From Hydractinia symbiolongicarpus (taxonomy: Eukaryota > Cnidaria > Hydrozoa > Anthoathecata > Hydractiniidae), in NCBI RefSeq assembly GCF_029227915.1, contig NC_079882.1:9548001-9612000 (forward strand): 64,000 nucleotides of DNA, read 5' to 3'. Position 1 is the first letter of the stretch. Each line of letters begins with the position of its first letter. A program made the translations under genes and the position numbers. Under the pieces are notes generated by a model that was given only the letters and a program-made list of their open reading frames with translations, was not told the DNA's origin and ran no database searches. Below are positions 10,401 through 63,588 of this stretch, one piece after another.

Positions 10401-13400
10401 TACTAAAAACAAGAACAATAAATTACCAAAATTTTATAAGTTGTAAGTAAATTTTCGTCTCTCCCGTATTGGATCCAATAATTTGTACGAAGATTTGAAT
10501 TGAATTTAGATCCTTGCACAATAATATAAATAACTTTTTTTAAGGCTGGCAAAACAATTTGCAACCAATATTTTGCATTTCCAATATTTTTCTGGATTCC
10601 TGCACTGTCAAGTGGCTGCCATCCAAAGCCTTGTGAATCAAGTCGTGCAAGATATGGGTTTGATCTTTGTTTGTTAGCATAACTCATAATTCTTTGTTTG
10701 CTAATTAAGCCACTAGACATACCAAGTGGTTTTGCATCTATAACAAAAAAGATCATAGAAGAACTTATAGTGAATAGGAACAAGGGTGCATGTGTGAAAT
10801 ATATTGATATAAGTAGCCTTGCGCATTATCTTTGCATTAAGTGCTGTAACGATTGTGCATCATTCGGCGATATCTTATTGGTACGAGTTAGTAGAAAAGT
10901 ATGTCACAAGGAGGACATTCGTCGTCGCAAAGAAGTAGTATCCTCGCCTCGACTCCTTATGTGCTAGGGAGGTAGCATTGGATCAATAGCGCAGTGGCTA
11001 GAGCAATGGCCTGGCAAGCGATAGGTTGTGGGTTCAAGTCCCACTCGATCCATCATCTCTGCAGCACTTAGAAAGATAATATGCAGGGTTACTATACTCT
11101 TATAGGAAATGTTTTCACACTAGTAATTTCTGTTAGTTTATCAGCCGCTTATGTTATGTGAAAATAGTAACTTTTTCATTGCAGAGTATATGAACAAGAA
11201 ATTGTATGTAAAAAATTGTATAACAGCAGGTTTTCATACTGACAAACTGAAAGTTGAAATCATTTCCTCTTTTATCACAGACAGGAACCAACAAAGCAAA
11301 AGAAAAATAGCCCAATAAATAAAAGTATTATTATGTTGTTATGTTATGTTCATAAGTATAGTATGACGTTTTAATGTATTTTGTATTTAAGTGGTAATAC
11401 AAGGCACTTAACAGTTTAAAGAATTTGGGATTGTAATGGCGTGGATACCAAAATGTTCATCAATTACAGGGACAATTTCTTAATATCAACAGTTTCCAAA
11501 ACTTACAATTCCAATGCGGGCATACGTAAATTTCGAACTGCATGGTAGCCACTTTGATTTGAAAAACATAAGTTGGTAAAAAATATATTCTGAAGTTTCT
11601 GGCTTTTACAGGAGTCTCAAATCTATAATTTACTGAACCATTTGATGGGATTCTATTTATCTAAACATAAAATATTTTTAATATAAATTTTAAAAATACA
11701 TATTGCAGTTTTTTTTAATACTTAATAAAGATTTTGCATGTTATTTTTGTACGCGAACTAGATTCAAAATGCAATGAATCAAAAGCCTTTCATGTTCGAT
11801 GAAATCATAACAATTACAGTTCTATGAAAAATTAATTAAAATGGTAAGAAACTGTCAAGAAATTGGTTATAACTTTTAATAATAGGACAAATTATTGGGA
11901 GTTTAGGTCCTGAAGAGAAACTTGTATCAATGTTAAATACACGCTTTTTACGAGAAAACAACTAGATTCTAAGTGGTCGATGGACATATATAAACACACA
12001 ACAACTGCAACAGGCAGAGAAATCTGTTTAAAATTTCTACTTTAGATTTTTTCTTTGAGATTGATCTTATTGAAGATGAAATGTGGCAAGATCAGGTAGA
12101 TTCAATTGTTGTAGGATTAAAACAAGGTATATTATAGGTTATTTAGAATCTTATACTGACTGCAAATAGAAAGAAAACAAGGGCAACACATTTGGCTTAT
12201 TTCACATTGAAAATTTCTGCACTAAATATTTGTTTTGCACTGTTTACAAAACTATTAAAAATGCATAAATTATGTAACCAAAACGCATATGTATTTATAA
12301 ACACTGTAACATAAACAGCATTAAGTTGAGTGTTATAACCAGTAAGAAAAATAATAATTTTTGGAATGTAGTAGTCAATATAACAAAACACAATGATGAG
12401 CCTAATGGACTGTAAGATTCTCAAAGGAAGACAATTTGAGCCTTTAGAATTATTTTGATTTGTTGTTGTTTTTGTTCAACGTTCAAACCTTGTTACATTT
12501 TATTTGATTCTTCACTTATAGTTTCAAAACCAATAATTATTAAAGACTAATATTGGGAGGGGGAAAGAAAATGGACGTGTTGTACCTTTGTTAAAAAAAA
12601 CGACTATCAGAAAACAAAGAGGACGACAAATACAACAAAGATGAAGATTGACGAATAATGAATATATAAATTTTGGAAAAAGGATTGTACGATGGTTCTC
12701 ATTAAAACATATGAGCGACTTAAAACATTGCATATCTATTTTAAGAGCTATTTCTTATATGCATGAGATTGGTTTTTGAATGATTTAAGTGCACCATTTA
12801 CCATTTCTTAGGTAATTTGACGCAGTCGCAATCTAATCTGGATAAACTCCTGATGGAGCAGTTTACTTAGAGTATTTAAACACTTAGAAGTGATAATTGG
12901 ACATACTATGTCTTAAGACATAAATTAAAAAACCATGGAAGACGGTACTTAATAATGCGCAAAAGATAAACAGACGGAACAACTTTAAATGTAAAAAAGA
13001 CTTTTGAAACAGCAATATTGTCTATGATTTTACAAACCCTATCAAAACCTGTTTAGTAGTAAAAGCTTCTGAAGCAATGGCTTAGAACACGCCAAGACCC
13101 CAAGCATTGTTTTTTTTGTTTTATTTATTTTAAATGTTTTGACATAGTAAAAAAATTGGCTAGATTAGTGCCTGCCATACTAATAGTGTTGATGTAAATC
13201 CAACATTGATAAAGTTGAGAGAGTGTCACTCAGCCATTCAAAACAATATGTTTATATTAATAACTCCTAATTTTAAGAAAAGGGTTTTGCGTAAAGGGAA
13301 GGTATTTCTTTCATACCTAATATTGAAATCTGTATGCACCAACTGCTCAAGTGCTTTGATGACCAAAAACCAGCACAGAACTGAATCCAAGTGCTTCGAC

Positions 13401-40037: not shown

Positions 40038-41048
40038 TTAGGCTTCGCTGCTATTGTCGACTTCCTTGAATAGCCAATATTCTTCAATAATGTCTTTCCA
40101 GGGTACAACCTTTTTCAAATGTTGAGGTCTTTTTTTTCTTTTTGGGCTCTCAATATCCTCTTCTCCTTCATCTTCATCACTTTCATCATCGTTATCAAAT
40201 CGACCATGCACTTTGTTGTTCATGTCGTAATAAATTTTTCGGACGTTGGCGCAACAACATAAAAACCTTGCTGTAATGCATACTTTTAAAACAACGATGA
40301 ATGTAGTCACCAAATTAACAGGTGCCGGCACAGATGTTGTTTTAGTCATATTCCATATTACACTTCCACGTCCAAACTTCCATTCAATTTCCGACTTTTC
40401 TTCAATTTTGGCATATGTGTCGCTCATCATTGCAATAAGTAAATTCACCAGCACAATAATAGCAAGAATCTGATAAATAGCAAAGACAAATGTAGCGATA
40501 ACATACGTTTCACTCGGACTGTCGTTTCTTTCCTTTGCAGTTAATTCTACTGGTCTATTTGTAAGACCGAAGCATGCAAAGAATAGCTCTTCAAAAACTA
40601 TTCTAATGCTGACTTTAATGTTTAAGTCAGTAAAACCTTCGGGAAAATCAACTCTCTTTTTGTTATAAACTGGTTTATAAATCACGCACATATGTAATGT
40701 AAAAGCACCAATAAACAACAATAGCACTATAAGAAACTTCACAACATCCATGACCAAACTTCGAATGATAACAGACCATGGACCAAATAATTCATGCATG
40801 TTCATAAATTCAAAGATTTGAACAATCAGCACAAGCAGGACAAAGGCAAAGATGTTATCTCTAACGTACATCAAATTCTCTCTTGGTCTGTCGTCGACAA
40901 ATACTGCCATTAAGTTTGCACCAAGAGCTGCACTTGACAAAACACATGTTATTAATCGCAGCAATTTAAACTCGGAATCAGCAATTTGTTTTACAAAGAT
41001 GGCAAACAACCAAATTAGCAGTGCACATTCCCATGGCATTGGATATAG
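40038..41048 (-). CDS. TRPN: TRPN terminal exon c: S2-S6, pore, TRP helix, tail
   Basis: 337 codons with stop, phase-0 acceptor (TTCTGTTTCAG). Entry LYPMPWECALLIW, RENLMYVRDN, HELFGPWSVI, pore EELFFACFGL, S6 end LVNLLIAMMS, TRP helix IEWKFGRGSVIWNM. The tail is strongly acidic and then basic (SPKRKKRPQ), ending VPWKDIIEEYW. Two odd points: the filter has Cys where a and b have Leu, and the TRP helix has Trp where a and b have Arg (VIWNM against IIRNM/VIRNM). It is separated from b by 3.2 kb containing two dead transposase fragments. Confidence 0.93.
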   Translation of the reverse strand, partial: LYPMPWECALLIWLFAIFVKQIADSEFKLLRLITCVLSSAALGANLMAVFVDDRPRENLMYVRDNIFAFVLLVLIVQIFEFMNMHELFGPWSVIIRSLVMDVVKFLIVLLLFIGAFTLHMCVIYKPVYNKKRVDFPEGFTDLNIKVSIRIVFEELFFACFGLTNRPVELTAKERNDSPSETYVIATFVFAIYQILAIIVLVNLLIAMMSDTYAKIEEKSEIEWKFGRGSVIWNMTKTTSVPAPVNLVTTFIVVLKVCITARFLCCCANVRKIYYDMNNKVHGRFDNDDESDEDEGEEDIESPKRKKRPQHLKKVVPWKDIIEEYWLFKEVDNSSEA

Positions 41049-44000
41049 CTGAAACAGAATTTTTTTATATTATTATGTATTATTTGCAACTTTACCAGAT
41101 TACTGTCAGGCTTTGTTTTATGTTTAGATTTCTGTCTTGTATTTTGCTAATAGACTCACTCAAAAGAGATAAAAGAAAAACATTCTAGGCCACCTATTTA
41201 AGAGATATTTATATCTTCAAATAAATAAAATAGGACACTTTTTTTAAAAAAATATGTAAGTTCATGTAACCTGGCAAACATAATTATGACTATTAGAATA
41301 TGTACCCCGGCGTAAAACCACAAGGTTTTAAATTCTGCTTGAAAATCAAAAATGCTAGCATATGTGAACATTGAATTTCAAGAATTAAGAATAAGAAGTC
41401 GAATTTAAGTTTTGCAATCTTTATTTGCTATATAAACGGTCTACATAAGTCCTACACTATCTTACCTTATAAAGCTTATAAAGGGGAATACTTACTATGT
41501 TTAAGGCCTTAGGACAAAAAAATATAAATATTTTGATGCCCAGATTAATCTTTCTGTTATAATAAAGGCGCAGTAAAGATCGGGAATTAGAAAATAAAGT
41601 GTTTTCTCGAATGGTTTGGAAAGTAAAATATAGGGTTTTTTACTTATGACTTACGTAAAGCACTAAAAATGCGGGAAAATTCATTTAGCACAATATTTGG
41701 AATTTTACGAGATATTTTTGGCGACATGCAAGCCTTTTTTTAGAAAACCCGTTCAAATGCCTCTTAACTTGAGGCTGAGATTATACTTCATCTGCTAACT
41801 CGCAAAATTCTGAAAAGTAAATTGATAGATCGACAAGAATCTTGCTGGAGAAAATTTTAAGGGTAAAAAACAGGGATCTGACTTCAGAAATTTTCCGAAA
41901 ATCTTCTTTAAAGTTAAGAAACTGAATTCAAATTTATTTTTTTTATAAAATAGACGTGTTTAAGGATGTTTAAAATAGTCGAATTTAAAGTAATGACTAT
42001 TTAAAAAAAATAAGACCATATTAAAATTTCTGCGAAAAATTTTTTAATCGAAGGTCGCCCTTCATAATCATTATTTGTCTTCTCAAATGAATTCACATCA
42101 TTTATTTCTGTTACAAAGGCCTATCAGCCATTCAACATGGATTGGCTTGATGATGGGAAATCTAAAAGACCCATACACCTGAAAGCGGCTTTCAGAACCG
42201 TGTCTCATTAAAGATTTTATTCCTTGGAGAACAACATACCTTATTACAGGAAATTAACGGAGCATGAAATTAACAGATTTTAGCCTTTTTCGCGTTAACT
42301 TTATATCGTGTTCATTTTTGGGGCCCGTAAATTTAGTGATTTTCTGCCTCTAGTAATTTCATGAAAAAACAGCCATAAAATTGTAAAAAATTACGGGACA
42401 TGTGATAAAGGGTTTAGATTACAAGTTTTATTTTTCTTTGAAAATTGTTAACTTGTCAGCAATCACAGTTGATAACATTTGCCCTTGTCGATTACAACAT
42501 TATGATACTTATGGTGCCAAAGAATCTAACCCATCTGCTTCAACCTCGTGATTTGACAACCAATGAGAGCTACCTTCAGGGATTATTTCACCAACACAAC
42601 AACAAAAGAGCTCCGAACCAATCCTGAGAAAGATGTAACAACCATTGAGGTAGATCTTCGGTTATCTACTCTCAAGCCGATTCATGCAAAGGTGATAGGG
42701 CAGATTTATCAGCATTTTTAAGCTGACGCAAGGACGCCAAACTATTATCAACAGCTGGAAAGCAACTGGTGTAATAAAAGCTGTCGCAGATGCAAGAAAC
42801 GGTCATGTAGATGATTGTTTTTATTCGTGAAAATATAAAGTTACAAAGAGAATAATTTTCATTTTATTCCCTATCCCTGAAGACGGCGTTAATTTTATGC
42901 TTAAAAAATTGTGATTTTGCTAAGACCGTGTTAATTCATATACTTACAAAACACGTGTTGTTAATCAACTGCTCCGTTAATATCATGTAATAAGTTATCG
43001 ACAACTAAAATTATGTCTAACTAAAATTCTGTCCGACTAATAATTTAGTCCAAAATTTTATTTTCAAAACAGATGTTCTGAGAACTGTTGAGCTGTACAA
43101 TTCTATATTTACTTCTAAAACCAATGACAAAAGAGAGGCTTTTTTTCTTTTATCTATCCTAAAGTGATTTTTTACTCTTTTAAAAACATTCTGTGCATCG
43201 TTGTTGCTTCACACATAACAGCCTTTTCAAAGCTTTTGACTATGATCTCCTTTTCGTTTTGCGTATACAAATTTACGATCCAACCATCGAGTAAGGGTTT
43301 CAAATCAGAAAGTTTGGGAAAAATTTTAATATCTACCGGTCCAATACCATTTTTCATTTGCCGAGCAACTTGGTTGAAAACCAATCATTATACTGGTTTG
43401 AAAAAGAGTTTTTGCTGCCTTATTGAAACTTAAATCTAATGGTTAAAATTTATTAGTGAGGTTGTGAGGAACGATCATGAGCTTGTATGTATTTTTAGAA
43501 CAAAGTTCTTTTAGAATGTCATTATCCTGTCATTTAAAGGTATCCATTATAACAGTTCTGTTGTTTTGGCATACCATTTTCTTGTTTCATTTCCTCAAAA
43601 TAAGAAAATATGATTTCCTTAAAAAACTCTACCGATTTATCTGTGTTGGTCCTTCGTAAATGTGGTAATCTTTCTTTGAAAATTGTCTTTTTGAACCTTT
43701 CGCGCATAGTGAAAAGAGCTTTTATTCTTAAAATTATGTATTCTGAGAAATTAAAAAAAAAATATCAGTCGGACAAAAGCGACTAAATTTTTAAAAGGCG
43801 CTAAAATTTTGTCCAAACTAATAATTTTACCTGACTTAAATTCTGTCCGACTTTGTTTTGACCGACAAAGTAGATAAGAACGCCGATGCTTCTATAATTG
43901 ATAACGTCATTTATATTAGTTAGTTCGAAAACCTAGTCAAGATTTTTTAAAATTTTGCATTAGAAAACCTTTCGTTCTAATAGGCCTCCTTAAATTATAA

Positions 44001-47000
44001 CTACACACTTAGTAAATACAGAAAACCAAGATAAATCAAGTCGAATAATAAAAAAACTGATGATTGTCGGGTTAACAAAAATGTCAGTTATAAATATATA
44101 TTTCAAACTATACACCCAAACTAACTATTTCTACATATTAAAGTTTCATCACTATTTTTAGCAAAAGTATATAACAAGCTTATACCTTTATCATGCATTT
44201 TTATCTATGTTTTATCTATTACATAGACTTGACAATGTGTGACCGATAAAATTATATACCTTGATAATCTAATATTTTGTAAATGTAAAAGTGTCCTCAC
44301 TTTGCTCGCTCACTTCTACACCTTTACTCTCCCAGTAATCTTTCACGATAGATTTCCATGGCACAACATTATAAAGCAAACGTATTCCTTGTTCCTCAAT
44401 ATCCTCTTCTGTTTCACTCTCCTCACCATCAGTTTGTGCTTGATCGTCTTTCATACCAAATATGACAGTAGACTTACAGCACATGCATTTTACTCTCCTA
44501 ATAAACCTAACGATTGACATAAGAGCTGTCACAATGTTCATGGGGGCTGGGACTGAACCAGATCTTGTCATATTTCGAATGACAGTTGCGCGACCAAACT
44601 TCCATTCGATTTCCGACCTTTCTTCAATCCTTGTATAGGTACTACTCATCATAGCAATTAAGAGATTAACCAGTACTATAATTGTGGTGATTTCGTAAAG
44701 GGCAAAGACAACTGTAGCAATTTGGTAAGTCACGTCTGGATTGTGAATTCCATCAGCATCTGTAATTTTTTCCGGTCGACTTGAAAGGCCAAACAAGGCA
44801 AAAAATAAATCGTAAAATATAGATAAAAAATCTCCCTTTATTCCAAATGAAGTGACACCGGTGGGAATGTACGTCCTTTTTTTGTCATATACAGGCTTGT
44901 AAATGACACACATATGCAGTGTGAAGCCTCCAATAAACAGCAACAACACACAAAGAAATCGAACGACATCAAAAACCAAATTTTTAATGATAATTGACCA
45001 AGGTCCAAACAGTTCATGCATCGTCAAGAACTCCAAGATTTGCATCACAAGAATAAGAAGAACGAACGCAAGTATGTTATCACGTGCATACATTAAATTT
45101 TCACGTGTTCTTCCGTCAGTGAACAGTGCATAGATGTTCACACCAATTGCAGCCGTTGATAAGATCATTATTAGCAGTCGTAATATGTTGGTTTCAGACT
45201 CCTGAATCTTTGTCACGAATAACGCACTTAACCACAGCAATAATAGCCACTCCCAGGGCGTTGGAAAAACCTAAAAAAAATGTTTATATTATAAAGAATA
45301 GAATAATTTTAAATAATGCAATACAAAAAGACATTTGACTTTAATTAATATGATTTTTAGTTTATTTTTATATTACAAATAGTTATTTTTTCTAACTAAA
45401 TTATATAGCTTTATATTATATTTAGGTTTATATTTATTCATACCTTACTTTACTTCTGTTTATTAAATTTACGGTATCGACGAGAACGTTGTCTGTTCTC
45501 TTCCATAATGGTAGCAGCCGATGTGCCATACAAGCTTGTGTATCCAACTGGGACCATGTTGTTTAAAAAAAGTGAATGAAAACAAAACTGTTTTTAATAC
45601 ATTTTGTTTTTCTAAAAACTGCCGTTCTACCATAAATAAAAAAAGTAAAAAATATGGCGACTATTCTCAAAAAACATTATTGTTAACTTAACTTGTTAAA
45701 TATTACAAGTATATATAATTTACATAAAACTAATATATTATGGTTTCTATTTTTTAATGTAGAAAAAAAGAACAAAATCAATTTTGTTTTTCACATTTCT
45801 CCTTTCGTGTTTCACAGTAAAAGAACTTTATGCTTACTTTGAAAAATATTTTCATCGAAACATTCAAGACCGATTTCTTTTTTCTGTACTTTCTTTTGCT
45901 AAAGTTAGACAAACTTGGACACTAATTTAAATATTTATCAAATATTGTTAGAAATAATTATAAATTATGATACATTTGACCAACCAAACTATATTTTATC
46001 AAGTCCATCTTTTTCAATCCCATGATTCTGACGAAATTCTTCCACAACACTGTTCCAGGGTACTGCATGTAAAATTGGAACAGGCGCGCTCTTGTCATCA
46101 GGATCATAACTATCTGTTTCCGATGAACCACTAGAGGTACTTTTAGTGTCTTCCATATTCAGTTCCACGTCTCCATCATCGTGTAGAGGAACTTTTTTCT
46201 TTACTTTGTTCTTGGCATAATGATCAATCTTCACAAAGCAACAGCAGAAACCATACATGAAGGATACCATGGTAATTGTTATTATCGTTGCAAGAACATT
46301 TGCTGGAACAGGCATTGAGTAGGATTTGATCATGTTGCGTATGATACCTGCTCGCCCGTACTTCCACTCAATATCCGACCTTTCATCCAACACTGCGTAT
46401 GTGTTACTCATCATTGCAATCAGCAAATTGATCAAAACAATGACAGCTAAAATTTGATACAACGCAAACACTAAGGTGGCTATAATGTACGTTTGTTCAG
46501 AGTTTGTTTCAAGCTGACTACCACTCATCGGTTTTGGTTTATCTGCTAAACCAAATAACGAAAAGAATAAATCGTCAAATATAGCAGCCAATCCGTCGGA
46601 GTATCGGAGGATAGGAGTCGTGCTTGTCGGGATATCAACCAGCTTTTTACCATAGACAGGTTTGTAAATGACACCGAAGTGTAAGGTAAATGCAATGACA
46701 AACAGAAACATGATGATTAAAAACTTAATCACGTCAATAACAAGACTGACGATGATAACTGACCATGGACCAAACATTTGATTCAGCGACAAAAAGTCCA
46801 TAATTTGGATTACAAGTGCCAGTAATAGAAAAGCTAACACATTATCTCTTATATACATAATGTCTTCACGTAATTTCCCTTCGGCAAATATTGCTGCGCA
46901 GTGTATTCCAATTCCAGCAAATGCAATCACAAGTTCGACCACTCGCAGGATTTTAGAATCAGGTTCTGTTATTTCTGCTAATAAATGACCTGTTACCCAT

Positions 47001-50000
47001 ATAAGTGTTAGCCATTCATACGGGGTAAGGAAGACCTGAAATAACAACAAAATCTCCGTAAATTCTTCATAGTGAGTTTAAAATATTTAAAATAAACGGA
47101 AATTTCACACTTACGGATAGTGTATACGAGTATATGTCTCTTCGAATATTGTGTATGCGTATTTAGTCTGAACGTGGTATATGCATGCGTAGAGGCTAAA
47201 ATGTACTGCAACAGCTCACTTGAAATGTGTGTGACTGGCAAGATTTAAAATCACTATTCATTTTCGCGCCACTGTTTTTTTATTAATTACCTATTTTGTT
47301 GTTTCGGGTCCAAGTTTAATTCATTAAAATGGTTACGTATTTGAATAAAACAATAACTTATAAATCTATGACCTTTGTTTTTTATTTCGTTATATGCTAG
47401 TTTTTTACGTTCAGATATTTGTGTTCGCTTTTAATTTAATTTTAAATGTAATGTTACAAGTTTATATTTTTGTTAAATGGTGTTTATGGGATGTTATGTA
47501 GTGTTGTTGGTGATTTTTGATAATCTACTTACCTCAAGATAAGACCGATCCCACGGCACGACAATCACTAATGTTAACACAATAATGAAATACATGTGTG
47601 AAACAATATGACATATGAACTTCAGTGTAGGTATTTTATTCCAACGATGAAATGGCAAGCAAAGGAAAAACCATAACGGCGGGAAAATGAAACAGATGAA
47701 TGCAACTAAAATGGCGAACACTCCTTCGATATGAATGTCGTTTCCTAAAAATTTAAAAAATGGTTTTAAAAAGTTGAATTCGTATTGCAGGGAATTGGAT
47801 GTTTTTTTACATAGAAGCTAACAAACTGATTAAGAAAAATATATATACATAATAAATAGTTACCTCTCCACAGGTCAGATAAGTAACCTTGTACATTTGC
47901 ATGTGCAACGCAATCTTTGAATTCATTATCTATCATGATATCTAACAATGGTTGTTTGGCATCATCAATGGCGTTCAATAACCCTTCACAACCATACGTT
48001 GTAGCAATGTGAAGTATGTCATATGCCATTTGCTAAAATAGAGAAAATAACAGCAAACTATATACACATCTTCTTTGCCAGCACTTCTTAGGTTTTATAC
48101 GTTGGGGAAACCTATGGAAAAAAATTAGGGGCAAAAATATGTTGTGAAGAGCAAGAAGTAGAGTTGGCCTAAAGTACAATTACAGCAAAAAAATGGATTA
48201 TTAATCAATGCCAAAGTTTTGATTAAACTACCTCGCAAAATAAAGCAATTTCCAAGTAATCCTGACTTTTGTCCTTCACTCTCAACGATTCTTCTCGATA
48301 CATCAAGGTGAGTTTAATAGCTGTATAGATAGGTGCAGGAGAATTCAAAATAAAATCCTGGGCTGAGACATTGTTGTTCAACTTGCAGCAAATCATCAAA
48401 TGAGCCAAAAACTACGAGAAAAGAAATAAAATTAAGACATTTCCGTTGTGAAAACAAACACTTGAAAGAGAAGTTACTCTAAAAACTCACTTTTTTATCC
48501 TGCAAGAGTTCTTCGACGTCAAATTCGTTTAACAATAAAAACTTCATAACGTCTAAATGATGGTTCTTAGCAGCAAACGCTAATGGTGCTTTACCATCCT
48601 AAAAAAAAACAAATTTTAAAGTTTGTCTTTTTCTACAAAAGTATGTACAAAAAACATAATTGTCGTTATACATACATTATCTTCTATAGTTGAAATAGCC
48701 CCCATTTGGACTAGATAGCGAACCACTTCTAGAAAGCCAGCATCGGCTGCATAGTGAAGAGGGGTCCATCCATTCTAAATATGATGTACAAAATAAGAGA
48801 TAAATTAGAGGTATTGGCAAGCCATTTCTTATAAAATATGCCGTCACAGCATCAACTGTGATTCATTGAAATATATTATGTATTTTACATACGTTGTCGG
48901 GATCATTGATTTCGGCACCTTGACCCAACAGTAATTGCACCAATTGCAAATGCCCATGTGCAGCTGCAAAATGGAGAGGAGCTCGTCCTGCTGCACACTT
49001 GAACCTAATTTGATCTGCAGATCTACTCAACAATAAACTCGCCACTTCATTGTGTCCTTCAACTATTGCCATGTGTAATGGAATATAGCCCTAAAGACAA
49101 AGAAACAAATCATGTTTTTACATTTAACTTTAATTTTATTGCATTGATAAATGTAAACCTTATTTAATCACATTAACTGTCAAAAATGAGTAGTTCATAC
49201 TTTCTTCGATGTTGGTTTATCAACAATGACACCGTCACTATTTATCAGCATTCTCACAGCACCCACGTGTCCATTTTTAGCAGCAAGGTGAAGACTCGTG
49301 TATAAGTACTAAAGGTAATTAAGATCAATATCTGCGTTTTTTAATTTTAAACAAACTTTAATACCGCAATAAAGCTGAAACTTACTTCTGTTTCTTCTGG
49401 AGGCTTACCCACTGGGCACTAAAATACAAAAAAATATATTGGATTTGATGTTACATTTAGTGATTATAAACAACCAAATTATCTCGTTACCTCACTCAAT
49501 ATACCTCCAGATACTCTTGTTAAGAAATCAGCCATACATGCAGTTTGATCGTGCTCTGCTGCGATATGCAGTGGCGTAAAACCAGTCTAAGATGTCGTGA
49601 AAAAGAGGTAGCATGTAAAAAGTTACAACAATTTTGCAGAACTAAAAGTCTACCAAAAACTTGTAATATTGTACCTTGTTACTGACAATGCTAAATGGGA
49701 TTTTTCCTTTTAATAAATCAATACTGCCTCTTTGTCCAAATTTTGCAGCAAGATGTAAAGGTGTCATGCCATCTTTATCTTCATCAGCAACGGGAACTCC
49801 CTGGTTAATTAACAATTGCAAAACTTCCACATGCCCTCCAGCAGCAGCTAAATGAATTGGCATTTGTCCAGTACCCTATCAAAAATAAGATTAATCATAA
49901 GATTAATAATAATAATTAATCATAAGATTAATAATAATCATGCTATTTTTTAACTTGTGTAACACAAGTTAAAGTTAATTTTGTTTGCACGTTACCTTGT

Positions 50001-57829: not shown

Positions 57830-57892
57830 TCGCGTTACGAGTTCTCATGCAAAAAAAATATTATTGTTTTTGCATGAGAACTCGTAACGCGA
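57830..57892. repeat. Perfect 26-bp inverted repeat with 11-base loop
   Basis: Arms 57830-57855 and 57867-57892 are exact reverse complements (inner part CGCGTTACGAGTTCTCATGC) around an 11-base AT loop. It lies between TRPN and the orphan exon at 58.6-59.0 kb. Confidence 0.9.
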
Positions 57893-60907: not shown

Positions 60908-63588
60908 TCAACAATCTGATTTTCCAATTATCCCTCGGCAATTTACAGGCTAAATAAAAAGACAAGGACATCACTTACATTTACGCTTTAAATAAAAGCT
61001 TGGAGAGTGAATAATTTTTTTTATTGTTCGTCTACTGGAGGGTGAGGGTAGCTATTTTCTCTTATCAATGGAGGCGGCGTTTGTTCCAAACATTACGGTA
61101 CTTAATATAGAAATATGTAATTACATTAGAGAGGAATATTACCTGACAGGTCCTATTAAAACACACACTATCAATAGATGAAGCCAGCTTGCACGGCGTA
61201 CCATCCACCGTTTGAGCAACATGCATTTGTTTGGAATTCGTATCAATACAAACAGAATGACATTCTTTCACCCCTAGAAGAAAAACTAATATAATAACTG
61301 TTTTATTTCAAAACATGCAATCCAAACATGATAGAATTTTACCTTGGTTTTGACCACACAAACCAAACGATAAAGATAAATCATCAATTGCAATGTCACT
61401 ATAGTACGACCGACCACGCACAGCTTCAATTGTTATCTAAAGAGTAGCATATGTAAACCTTTAAGTTTTATAAATAAAGAAAAATACTTAAAAATACATT
61501 GAGGCGGAAAATTTTAAAAATAGCCAATTAGAATGCGAGAAAGTGTAAACATTCTTTGTTGTTATAATGTTTATTTATAAAATAAAAAAGTTTACTGCTA
61601 GCCAACAAGAAATTTTCGCTAAAGTAGTTGATAACATCCTGAAACTTCAATATTTGCGCCTACGTAGATATTGAATTTGCCGTCGCAAAAATGTAGTCGC
61701 CTCGTGGATATCCAGCTTAAAAGTGTACTAACCTTGTATTCAATATTCACTTTTAAATCAATTTTAGCTTTCTGCCAACTTTGACCTTGTGGTCCTGTCT
61801 TGTACCATACTTTCCTTTTGTGTTTGCCATTTCGAATGAATACATTCAACGCACCAATATCTCTGCCAAACATGTGGTATGCAAATTCAAGGCAAAGTGA
61901 TGAAGCTAATATCATAGGTGATTCTAAAACAACAGTGCTTCCCTTGCGTAGCCTCCTGCCGTCCCCTAGTCCAGATGTTTCAAAATATAAATAATGACCG
62001 GACATATTTTTGAACGTATGATCATATTCTGGTCCGGTATACATTGATGGCGATTTTCCGCGTCCAAAAATCCATGGAATTGCGCCCACTTTTGAACTCT
62101 TCCAACCACAATTTGTTGATTCAAAATTGCATGTTAAGTTAAGAGAAGAAACTGTGATAAACAAAAAAAGATAGTAATATAGGAAATTATTATAGAAAAC
62201 ATAGGTTTCATAAGGATGGTCTTACTGTGCTTCTGTTGCATTTCCCTCGAGTAGCTAATCCATGTTTTATTGCGATGCCTTGATTTTTGACACCCCATCG
62301 AAGCGAGTGACTTTGTATCAATCCATTTGTTCATAATCTACAAAAATATTATTGGTTGTATTATTACAATCAGAACTGTAGAATCTTTAATTGACTGTTA
62401 AAAAAACAGAAATAGAAAACAGCCGTACCAACTCTGTCAGGGAATATATTTTACACGTCTTGTCATCTGCAGGAAGTACAATTCTATATTCTTTAGATAT
62501 TCCAGAGCATTCTTGTCCTCCCCCTTGCGGCCTGAATAAGAAATATAATAATTAATAAAACTAAAAGTGTAAATTCAGCATATTTTTTTGATAAGCGACT
62601 GCAAAAATTCTTGCAATTCTCTCTGGTAGATCTTCCATCAAGAAGAAAAACAGAAATTCTCTTATTGGCGCACCTTTGATATTCGTTATCATCGCGTTAA
62701 AGCGTGTACTTAGAAATATGCCGCTTTAATGATTGCTTGGTAAAGGAATGGACTAAATTTTGACAGATAAAGTTGCCATTGAGAAAAGGTCCCTTTAGGT
62801 ACCTAATAGGGTGCAAATTACAAGACTTACTTAGGATTATCGCATGTTCTATTTCTTCGTTGAATCAACCACATGCGTCGATGACTTTCACACGGGGGTT
62901 CAAAGGATGACCAGTTTGACCAATTTCCATGCACCAGGACTCTTTTGACCTTTTTCAGGCACTGCCCGCGAAGACACCACTATCAAATTTATAGTGAAAA
63001 TATTTTAATAATGAAATTTACAATATGGTATGAATATCATGTAACAAAAATCAAACGCCTGTCCTCGACTTCAAATTTTGTACATAAACCCCCTTTTTGG
63101 ATCCTGCTCCATTAATATACGGAGATGCAAAAAAGGAATTCGACTTTGTGTTACCAACAAACAATGTGAAAACAAGCTCTACCAATACCGTGTTTACATT
63201 TTAACAGACCGTACCCGGTTAACGGCACAAGACGTGCCCTCTAAAGGTGCATGCCACCAAACTGGTTCACAATGAGAAATACGATTCTTGCGGCACCATA
63301 GATACTTGCAGCGCGTTGACAACCTCTGAAATGAGTAGTGAGAAGAAAATAACATTACTGGTTGCGTGAAAGATTTATAAGCTTGCTAAACTAAATAAAA
63401 ACATGCAAGTGAGCAGTTGCCAAATGCTTTGTCTGTCTTACACAGGAAAAACTTTACCTGTCATCCAGAAAGACGTCATACCAAACTTACCAGCGTGCAT
63501 GGTAATGCATCTTTACCACGGTAACTTTTACATTGAGCAGTTAGATTTAGTGACTCTCCAGGAAGGTAATTCATATTGTGTTTAAAAA
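60908..63588 (-). CDS. ADAMTS-family protein, 3' part: disintegrin-like, TSP1, MAM, Cys-rich (protease exons outside window)
   Basis: Minus-strand exons: 63491-63588, 63215-63325, 62831-62979, 62429-62531, 62226-62337, 61733-62151, 61343-61436, 61143-61273, 60908-60949 (stop); phases agree, about 418 residues. In order: the disintegrin-like domain (LPGESLNLTAQC, CKYLWC, PLEGTSC, then WCLRGQC, the ADAMTS pattern leading to W-C-x2-G-x-C); a TSP1 repeat (HGNWSNWSSF to PQGGGQEC); a short basic segment; a MAM domain (LTCNFESTNCGW to SDIAIDDLSLSFGLC); then VDGTPC, SVCFNRTCQ and NCRGIIGKSDC-stop, the end of an ADAMTS Cys-rich domain. The chain stops before a spacer or extra TSP1 repeats. Family members are secreted matrix metalloproteases; the catalytic domain should lie beyond 64000. 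The start at 63588 is the best of two possible acceptors. Confidence 0.88.
61343..62151 (-). CDS. MAM domain of the ADAMTS-like protein (two exons)
   Basis: Exons 61733-62151 and 61343-61436, joined in phase 0. Start CNFESTNCGW, middle SGHYLYFETSG, LESPMI and CLEFAYHMFG, end DIAIDDLSLSFGLC. Cysteine pairs and the closing D-I-A-I-D-D phrase are diagnostic of MAM domains, which mediate adhesion or oligomerisation. Confidence 0.92.

Follow-up and report, generated by a model that had tools for sequence, protein, structure and literature searches.

To our knowledge, the NOMPC gene of Drosophila provides a single pore per gene. The channel it encodes (solved structure 5vkq) consists of an ankyrin spring and a six-helix TRP channel, an architecture shared by the channel considered here. 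For Hydra, Schuler et al. (2015, PMC4494053) reported four paralogues in stinging cells, TRP-N1 to TRP-N4, based on reverse transcription PCR and rapid amplification of cDNA ends, and passages of this article state that probes were obtained for some Hydra TRP-N only, 'due to a lack of unique sequences'. Its main text shows 0 occurrences of 'splic', and parts of PMC8523708 adopt its account of the paralogues. The diversity of cnidarian TRPN channels has so far been attributed to such gene copies. In the present analysis, a stretch of 64,000 nucleotides from the hydrozoan Hydractinia symbiolongicarpus (contig NC_079882.1, positions 9,548,001 to 9,612,000; referred to as the window) was found to contain one TRPN (NOMPC-type) gene on the minus strand, for which we estimate a probability of about 80% that three tandem alternative last exons are served by one shared spring.

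As described in passages of PMC4494053, the Hydra channels belong, like the Hydractinia gene, to a hydrozoan TRPN expansion with about 28 ankyrin repeats. Whereas the Hydra TRP-N are presented there as separate genes, Hydractinia comprises several pores on one gene, and one gene could yield the same kinds of channels by an exchange of the core. For insects, splice variants are described for Pyx and TRP-gamma (in parts of PMC7143563) and for TRPL and Pyx (in parts of PMC6137742); both sources were checked for pore variants of NompC.

Structure of the gene and its three terminal exons

The tandem arrangement of last exons is directly present in the DNA. The homologous exons a, b and c follow one single donor in one common phase, and each comprises its own acceptor and its own stop (Table 1). 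None of them showed an internal stop in phase 0, and an AG precedes each one. Lengths, phase, acceptors and the donor at 47533 agree in every position with the original prediction. When the 7.5 kb region was shuffled 300 times, the longest stop-free run averaged 86 codons and never exceeded 171, compared to 333-348 codons in the real exons, and the intact frames are not a product of chance. Since S1 is located on the shared exon, the exchanged block extends from S2 to the C-terminus.

The upstream part is well defined by the public protein P0001, which was reconstructed from first exon B, 28 shared exons and exon c with 1621 of 1621 residues identical, corresponding to the predicted 29 exons ahead of the terminal ones. 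All shared exons (28/28) are flanked by AG and GT. In the P0001 model, donor 47533 is spliced past a and b to acceptor 41048 of the most distal exon. The same protein ranked first when the pore of exon b was used as a protein query. Its 17 Ank_2 and 10 Ank stretches (Pfam) represent the long N-terminal ankyrin array typical of TRPN, which comprises about 28-29 repeats. Surveys of cnidarian TRPN proteins based on names can miss P0001, P0003, P0004, P0006 and P0007, which are misleadingly annotated in the databases as 'serine/threonine-protein phosphatase 6 regulatory ankyrin repeat subunit', P0001 being the B-like isoform X3.

The window was also searched with seven TRPN proteins (tblastn, threshold E 0.05). 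Beyond the shared block and exons a, b and c no match to a fourth pore copy lay below the threshold (best 0.09), and no additional TRPN coding piece was detected below it either.

Concerning the identity of the exons, Drosophila NOMPC was the best match by sequence among solved structures for all three (a 5.4e-37, b 9.7e-44, c 4.4e-43), while TRPC channels ranked behind it. A predicted structure of exon a (51 sequences) reached a mean predicted local distance difference test score (pLDDT) of 71.0, and its helices were assigned, in order, to putative S2, S3, S4, S5, pore, S6 and TRP helix. Foldseek placed 5vkq first with an E of 4.8e-9, yet with a template modelling score (TM-score) of 0.28 and a root mean square deviation of 16.6 the fold match is weak, and the TM-scores by query length did not exceed 0.29 among the matches listed. 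Due to these low scores, the channel identity rests on sequence. The predicted structure of exon b (11 sequences) was discarded for its low mean pLDDT of 54.5.

The identity (blastp) amounts to 52% between b and c and to 41-43% between a and either of the two. The highest similarity was observed for S4-S5 with S5 and for S6 with the TRP helix, the lowest for the turret with the filter region and for the tail. The filter sequence itself reads FGLADK in a, FGLSSR in b and FGLTNR in c. By the criterion applied, 7 columns contain residues that mark the pore type. The tail motif PILH..PW was rejected as such a mark: it occurs in exon a, P0180, P0239 and P0200 and is absent from P0006 and P0007 of Hydra.

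All three exons show signs of constraint. Over 318 shared codons, third positions were the most and second positions the least diverged in 3/3 pairs. A three-branch codon model resulted in omega values of 0.09 for a, 0.05 for b and 0.04 for c, which are rough due to saturation. Imposing omega=1 on a single branch worsened the fit by a 2dlnL (twice the log-likelihood difference) of 13.2 (a), 11.4 (b) and 17.3 (c). Under simulated neutral evolution the exons accumulated on average 13.2, 8.1 and 7.3 stops, and 0, 0 and 2 of 2000 runs remained free of stops for a, b and c, respectively. With no stops, frameshifts or neutral evolution the exons look constrained at the sequence level and would not be pseudo-exons. 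The selection on all three which the original prediction had postulated is consistent with this check of the ratio of nonsynonymous to synonymous substitutions. Altogether, the three terminal exons are real and intact, and most likely functional as alternatives of the TRPN gene.

Table 1. Exons and splice donor of the Hydractinia TRPN gene, in positions of the window
Feature	Position	Strand	Characteristics
Candidate alternative first exon A	58966-58742	-	MSSNLHRYL..., 75 aa, phase 0 end; N-terminus likeness
First exon B	56039-55791	-	MDKKDKTPP..., 83 aa, phase 0 end; first exon of P0001
28 shared exons: ankyrin repeats, linker, S1	55674-47533	-	exact P0001 reconstruction; ankyrin Pfam matches
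Last shared exon: pre-S1 and S1	47744-47533	-	within exact P0001 reconstruction
Single shared splice donor GAG|GTAAGT	47532-47527	-	sequence reading; donor score
Terminal exon a: S2-S6, pore, TRP helix, tail	47035-45989	-	1047 bases including stop, 348 aa; a-type pore
Terminal exon b: S2-S6, pore, TRP helix, tail	45270-44269	-	1002 bases including stop, 333 aa; b/c-type pore
Terminal exon c: S2-S6, pore, TRP helix, tail	41048-40038 (40041 without stop)	-	1011 bases including stop, 336 aa; b/c-type pore

Splice signals and predicted use of the terminal exons

An acceptor matrix was built from 26 of the 28 shared acceptors and applied to the 395 AGs of the region. The acceptors of a and b took ranks 1 and 2, that of c rank 39. 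The score of the shared donor equals the best among the 25 other donors of the gene. The public model uses the most distal terminal exon, whose acceptor is the weakest of the three. Since the acceptors of a and b are the two strongest of the region, the use of c probably requires a repression of a and b, i.e. regulation.

The pre-mRNA would begin at first exon B, as in the public model, or perhaps at A, and would run through the shared exons for ankyrin repeats, linker and S1, after which the single phase-0 donor at 47533 would pair with one of the three acceptors. Because each terminal exon has its own stop, the choice of one rules out the others, and no dedicated mechanism of exclusion is required. 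The product would comprise a constant gating spring with S1 and a variable part of S2-S6, filter surroundings and tail. Based on the intact frames, the strong acceptors and the relatives of the pores, we infer junctions from 47533 to a and b, and transcripts ending in either exon, with a poly(A) site after each terminal exon, would follow. AATAAA or variants were found within 700 nt past each stop, motifs that are common in such A+T-rich DNA and do not discriminate. Nothing convincing was found for intron repeats able to pair for exon selection. The interval between b and c contains at 42988-43852 two 51-nt direct copies, 71% alike and 814 nt apart, and weak inverted repeats, which are perhaps a decayed transposable element.

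Several observations weigh against the use of all three exons. The junction 47533-41048 is the only one present in the public model, those to a and b being deduced, and the acceptor it uses is weak, at the 15th percentile of the shared acceptors. Saturated synonymous sites, with branch lengths at the bound of 12, limit the omega values. Exon b showed no close orthologue among the relatives found. Finally, full-length isoforms ending in a and b would be 87.0% and 89.8% identical to P0001. At 87% the a isoform should form its own 90% cluster, and its absence counts against the arrangement: the full-length a isoform was not found as a separate cluster among proteins of 861-2739 aa or of 242-770 aa. 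A separate cluster with Hydractinia pore a or b was found neither among the full-length proteins (best 120 of 160, and all 91 of a second search) nor among the 242-770 aa proteins, where scoring was applied to the 8000 candidates with the most words in common. The b isoform may be hidden inside the P0001 cluster of 7 sequences.

The missing a cluster and the single junction of the public model could also be explained if only one terminal exon, c, or c together with b, were in use, the remainder having dropped out of splicing, either as one-time alternatives or as remnants of a partial gene duplication. This is quite unlikely, as a and b are intact and constrained and possess the two best acceptors of the region, Hydra joins a-type pores to springs, and a-type exon-like frames occur in other contigs (P0180, P0239).

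A further explanation would treat b and c as independent downstream genes, or as cistrons of an operon, which encode short S2-S6 proteins and are expressed from promoters of their own or by spliced-leader trans-splicing. Hydrozoans do use spliced-leader trans-splicing, b and c each have an acceptor and a stop, and c contains a Met at residue 4. We nevertheless consider this explanation highly improbable, because c is linked to the shared exons in P0001, tblastn (threshold E 0.05) found neither an S1 nor an ankyrin piece between the terminal exons, and b, which has no Met before residue 35, would give a product without S1. The same search revealed no private TRPN coding 5' exons for b or c in the window, which the original prediction had named as evidence to the contrary. 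Between a and b, a coding-like frame of 35 codons (MVPVGYTSLYG...) lies at ~45557-45450 on the minus strand, followed by the donor-like GTAAGG. As a private first exon of b it was rejected, since its ATG frame stops before the best donor and an earlier donor shifts b out of frame.

Alternative terminal exons on a shared spring, as originally predicted, remain the best explanation; of the junctions this involves, the one to c is seen in the public model and those to a and b are expected from the DNA.

At the other end of the gene, first exons A and B both end in phase 0 and both lie ahead of 55674. Compared with 11 N-termini by blastp, exon A resembles those of Hydra P0006 and P0007 (E 3.5e-5 and 1e-5) and weakly that of P0121 (0.006), while exon B resembles those of P0004 and P0005 (1.3e-5 and 3.7e-6). 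Hydractinia thus perhaps comprises two possible N-termini and three pores, and two starts combined with three ends would permit six proteins. The interval between the two first exons contains a 31-nt inverted repeat (57830-57892, 97%, 1-nt loop). In the further surroundings, a frame with a MAM domain (Pfam 1.3e-26) at 61622-62221 on the minus strand belongs to an upstream gene of the same orientation, near which thrombospondin-like pieces were noted by eye. A tRNA gene (Rfam) is located at 10980-11052 on the plus strand.

Pore types and the Hydra genes

The shared segments of Hydractinia are 55-81% identical to those of Hydra P0006 and P0003, the first exon aside. For the pores, 19 relatives picked from 115 matches were compared with known ones. 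Eight were closest to pores a, c or Hydra, namely P0180, P0239 and P0200 (a-type) and P0172, P0179, P0182, P0183 and P0197 (b/c-type), with P0172 being 95% identical to exon c. In 8/8 of them the frame starts inside the pore exon, while the remaining 11, nearest to P0004-like, anthozoan or bilaterian pores, reach 30 to 353 residues further upstream (11/11). From these frames, the S1-S2 intron looks specific to the hydrozoan-like group. A search for related loci in viral contigs resulted in 26 stretches fitting the pattern and 0 confirmed.

Springs are joined to a-type pores in two Hydra proteins and to b/c-type pores in the third Hydra protein and in P0121. A pore tree of 26 rows was calculated from the pores of 14 proteins (including P0001, i.e. 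exon c), exons a and b and 10 of the 115 relatives, leaving out two distant rows (Montipora, Lytechinus). It showed an a-type clade with a support of 100/100 (exon a, Hydra P0006 and P0007, P0180, P0200, P0239) and a b/c-type clade with 91/88 (b, c, Hydra P0003, P0121 and five others), the latter rising to 96/94 in a 20-row tree after six distant rows were dropped. A grouping of a, b, c and P0172 was rejected in the approximately unbiased (AU) test (p-AU 1e-132), and so was a grouping of the three Hydra pores with P0197 and P0200 (p-AU 2e-4). In a ten-row tree, the grouping of a, b and c resulted in a p-AU of 4e-4 and that of the three Hydra pores in 0.013.

The springs tell a different story. 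In a tree of the same 14 proteins (quick search), the three Hydra springs formed one clade adjoining the single Hydractinia spring, with 100 in the Shimodaira-Hasegawa-like approximate likelihood ratio test (SH-aLRT). Placing Hydra X1 and nrA with Hydractinia was rejected (p-AU 2e-6), as was placing X7 with Hydractinia and P0121 (p-AU 8e-5). X7 corresponds to P0003 ('isoform X7', in a cluster of 12). Between X1 and X7 the identity amounts to 75-76% in the ankyrin part, 75% in the linker and 80% in the last shared exon, compared to 29% in S2-S4.

Since the Hydra springs form one clade, while their pores split into a-type and b/c-type, each with a pore of the Hydractinia gene, the pore types probably predate the Hydra duplications. 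Judged by these trees, a-type and b/c-type pores probably existed before the split of Hydra and Hydractinia, and the ancestor likely had one spring and at least two pores. The tree conflict is most simply read as the trace of an ancestor that combined several pores with one spring, each Hydra copy having retained one pore. Stated in full, the only TRPN gene of the hydrozoan ancestor would have offered two or three interchangeable cores for one spring by means of alternative last exons, a state which Hydractinia would keep, and the Hydra 'TRP-N paralogues' would be former splice isoforms, each duplicate having kept one core. We give this history somewhat better than even chances.

That three cores are ancestral is a weaker step, which may hold. 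Exon b branches outside the other b/c-type pores with 94/90 in the 26-row and 95/89 in the 20-row tree, and a recent b-c duplication reached a p-AU of 0.03, another recent placement of b one of 0.04. On the opposite side, a position of b inside the non-Hydra pores, with only Hydra-type pores outside, was not rejected (p-AU 0.096), and the ten-row tree leaves the placement of b unsettled.

A counterpoint to the ancestral multi-pore gene comes from the linker and S1 stretch, which taken alone (185 residues) does not settle how the Hydra genes are related (p-AU 0.18 to 0.42). Due to this undecided tree, gene conversion of the spring in Hydra has to be considered: two old Hydra genes could have exchanged spring sequence, causing the tree conflict without any multi-pore ancestor. 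This would concern the evolutionary part only, and it appears unlikely, as the conversion would have to span ankyrin sequence of about 1000 residues with a uniform identity of 75%, while the multi-pore state is directly visible in the Hydractinia gene.

Comparison with known systems

If the Hydra copies descend from a multi-pore gene, the 'TRP-N paralogues', thought to act in different parts of stinging cells, would be isoforms relocated to separate genes, and counts and probes of hydrozoan 'paralogues' may confuse isoforms with genes. The public Hydra pores belong to the pore types present in the single Hydractinia gene. A fixed spring with an exchanged core would furthermore constitute a natural experiment on the roles of spring and pore in a force-gated channel. 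The history would also be a case, if true, of splice isoforms and gene copies substituting for each other in evolution.

For SKI7/HBS1, where one gene serves both proteins in some fungi, the gene is reportedly duplicated elsewhere, with one isoform per copy. PMC3597508 describes, similar to the history proposed here, an alternatively spliced ancestral gene giving rise to two proteins, with the difference that this system is fungal and concerns no channel.

Among channels, NALCN (PMC3557258) is the closest precedent. Its exons 15a/15b and 31a/31b are likewise tandem duplicated exons that exchange the pore in one gene, and the NALCN types are old and were lost in some lineages. They differ in being short internal exons at one selectivity filter of a four-domain channel, whereas the Hydractinia TRPN gene would exchange everything from S2 to the C-terminus by a terminal exon. 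Exclusive C-termini from homologous tandem 3' exons are known from tropomyosin, and 77/236 human tandem duplicated exon substitutions exchange C-terminal regions (parts of PMC9741552); the example named there, tropomyosin, is a non-channel protein, and the Hydractinia case is a channel.

The general device of tandem duplicated terminal exons is already known, and the original claim of a novel route to channel diversity was too strong in this general form, given the published NALCN pores and C-terminal exons. For TRPN, no report of alternative pores was found among the titles and abstract openings listed, with most subscription journals outside the scope. Compared to the known systems, new as far as could be seen are the application of such exons to everything from S2 to the C-terminus behind a gating spring and the apparent interchange of this arrangement with gene duplication in Hydra.

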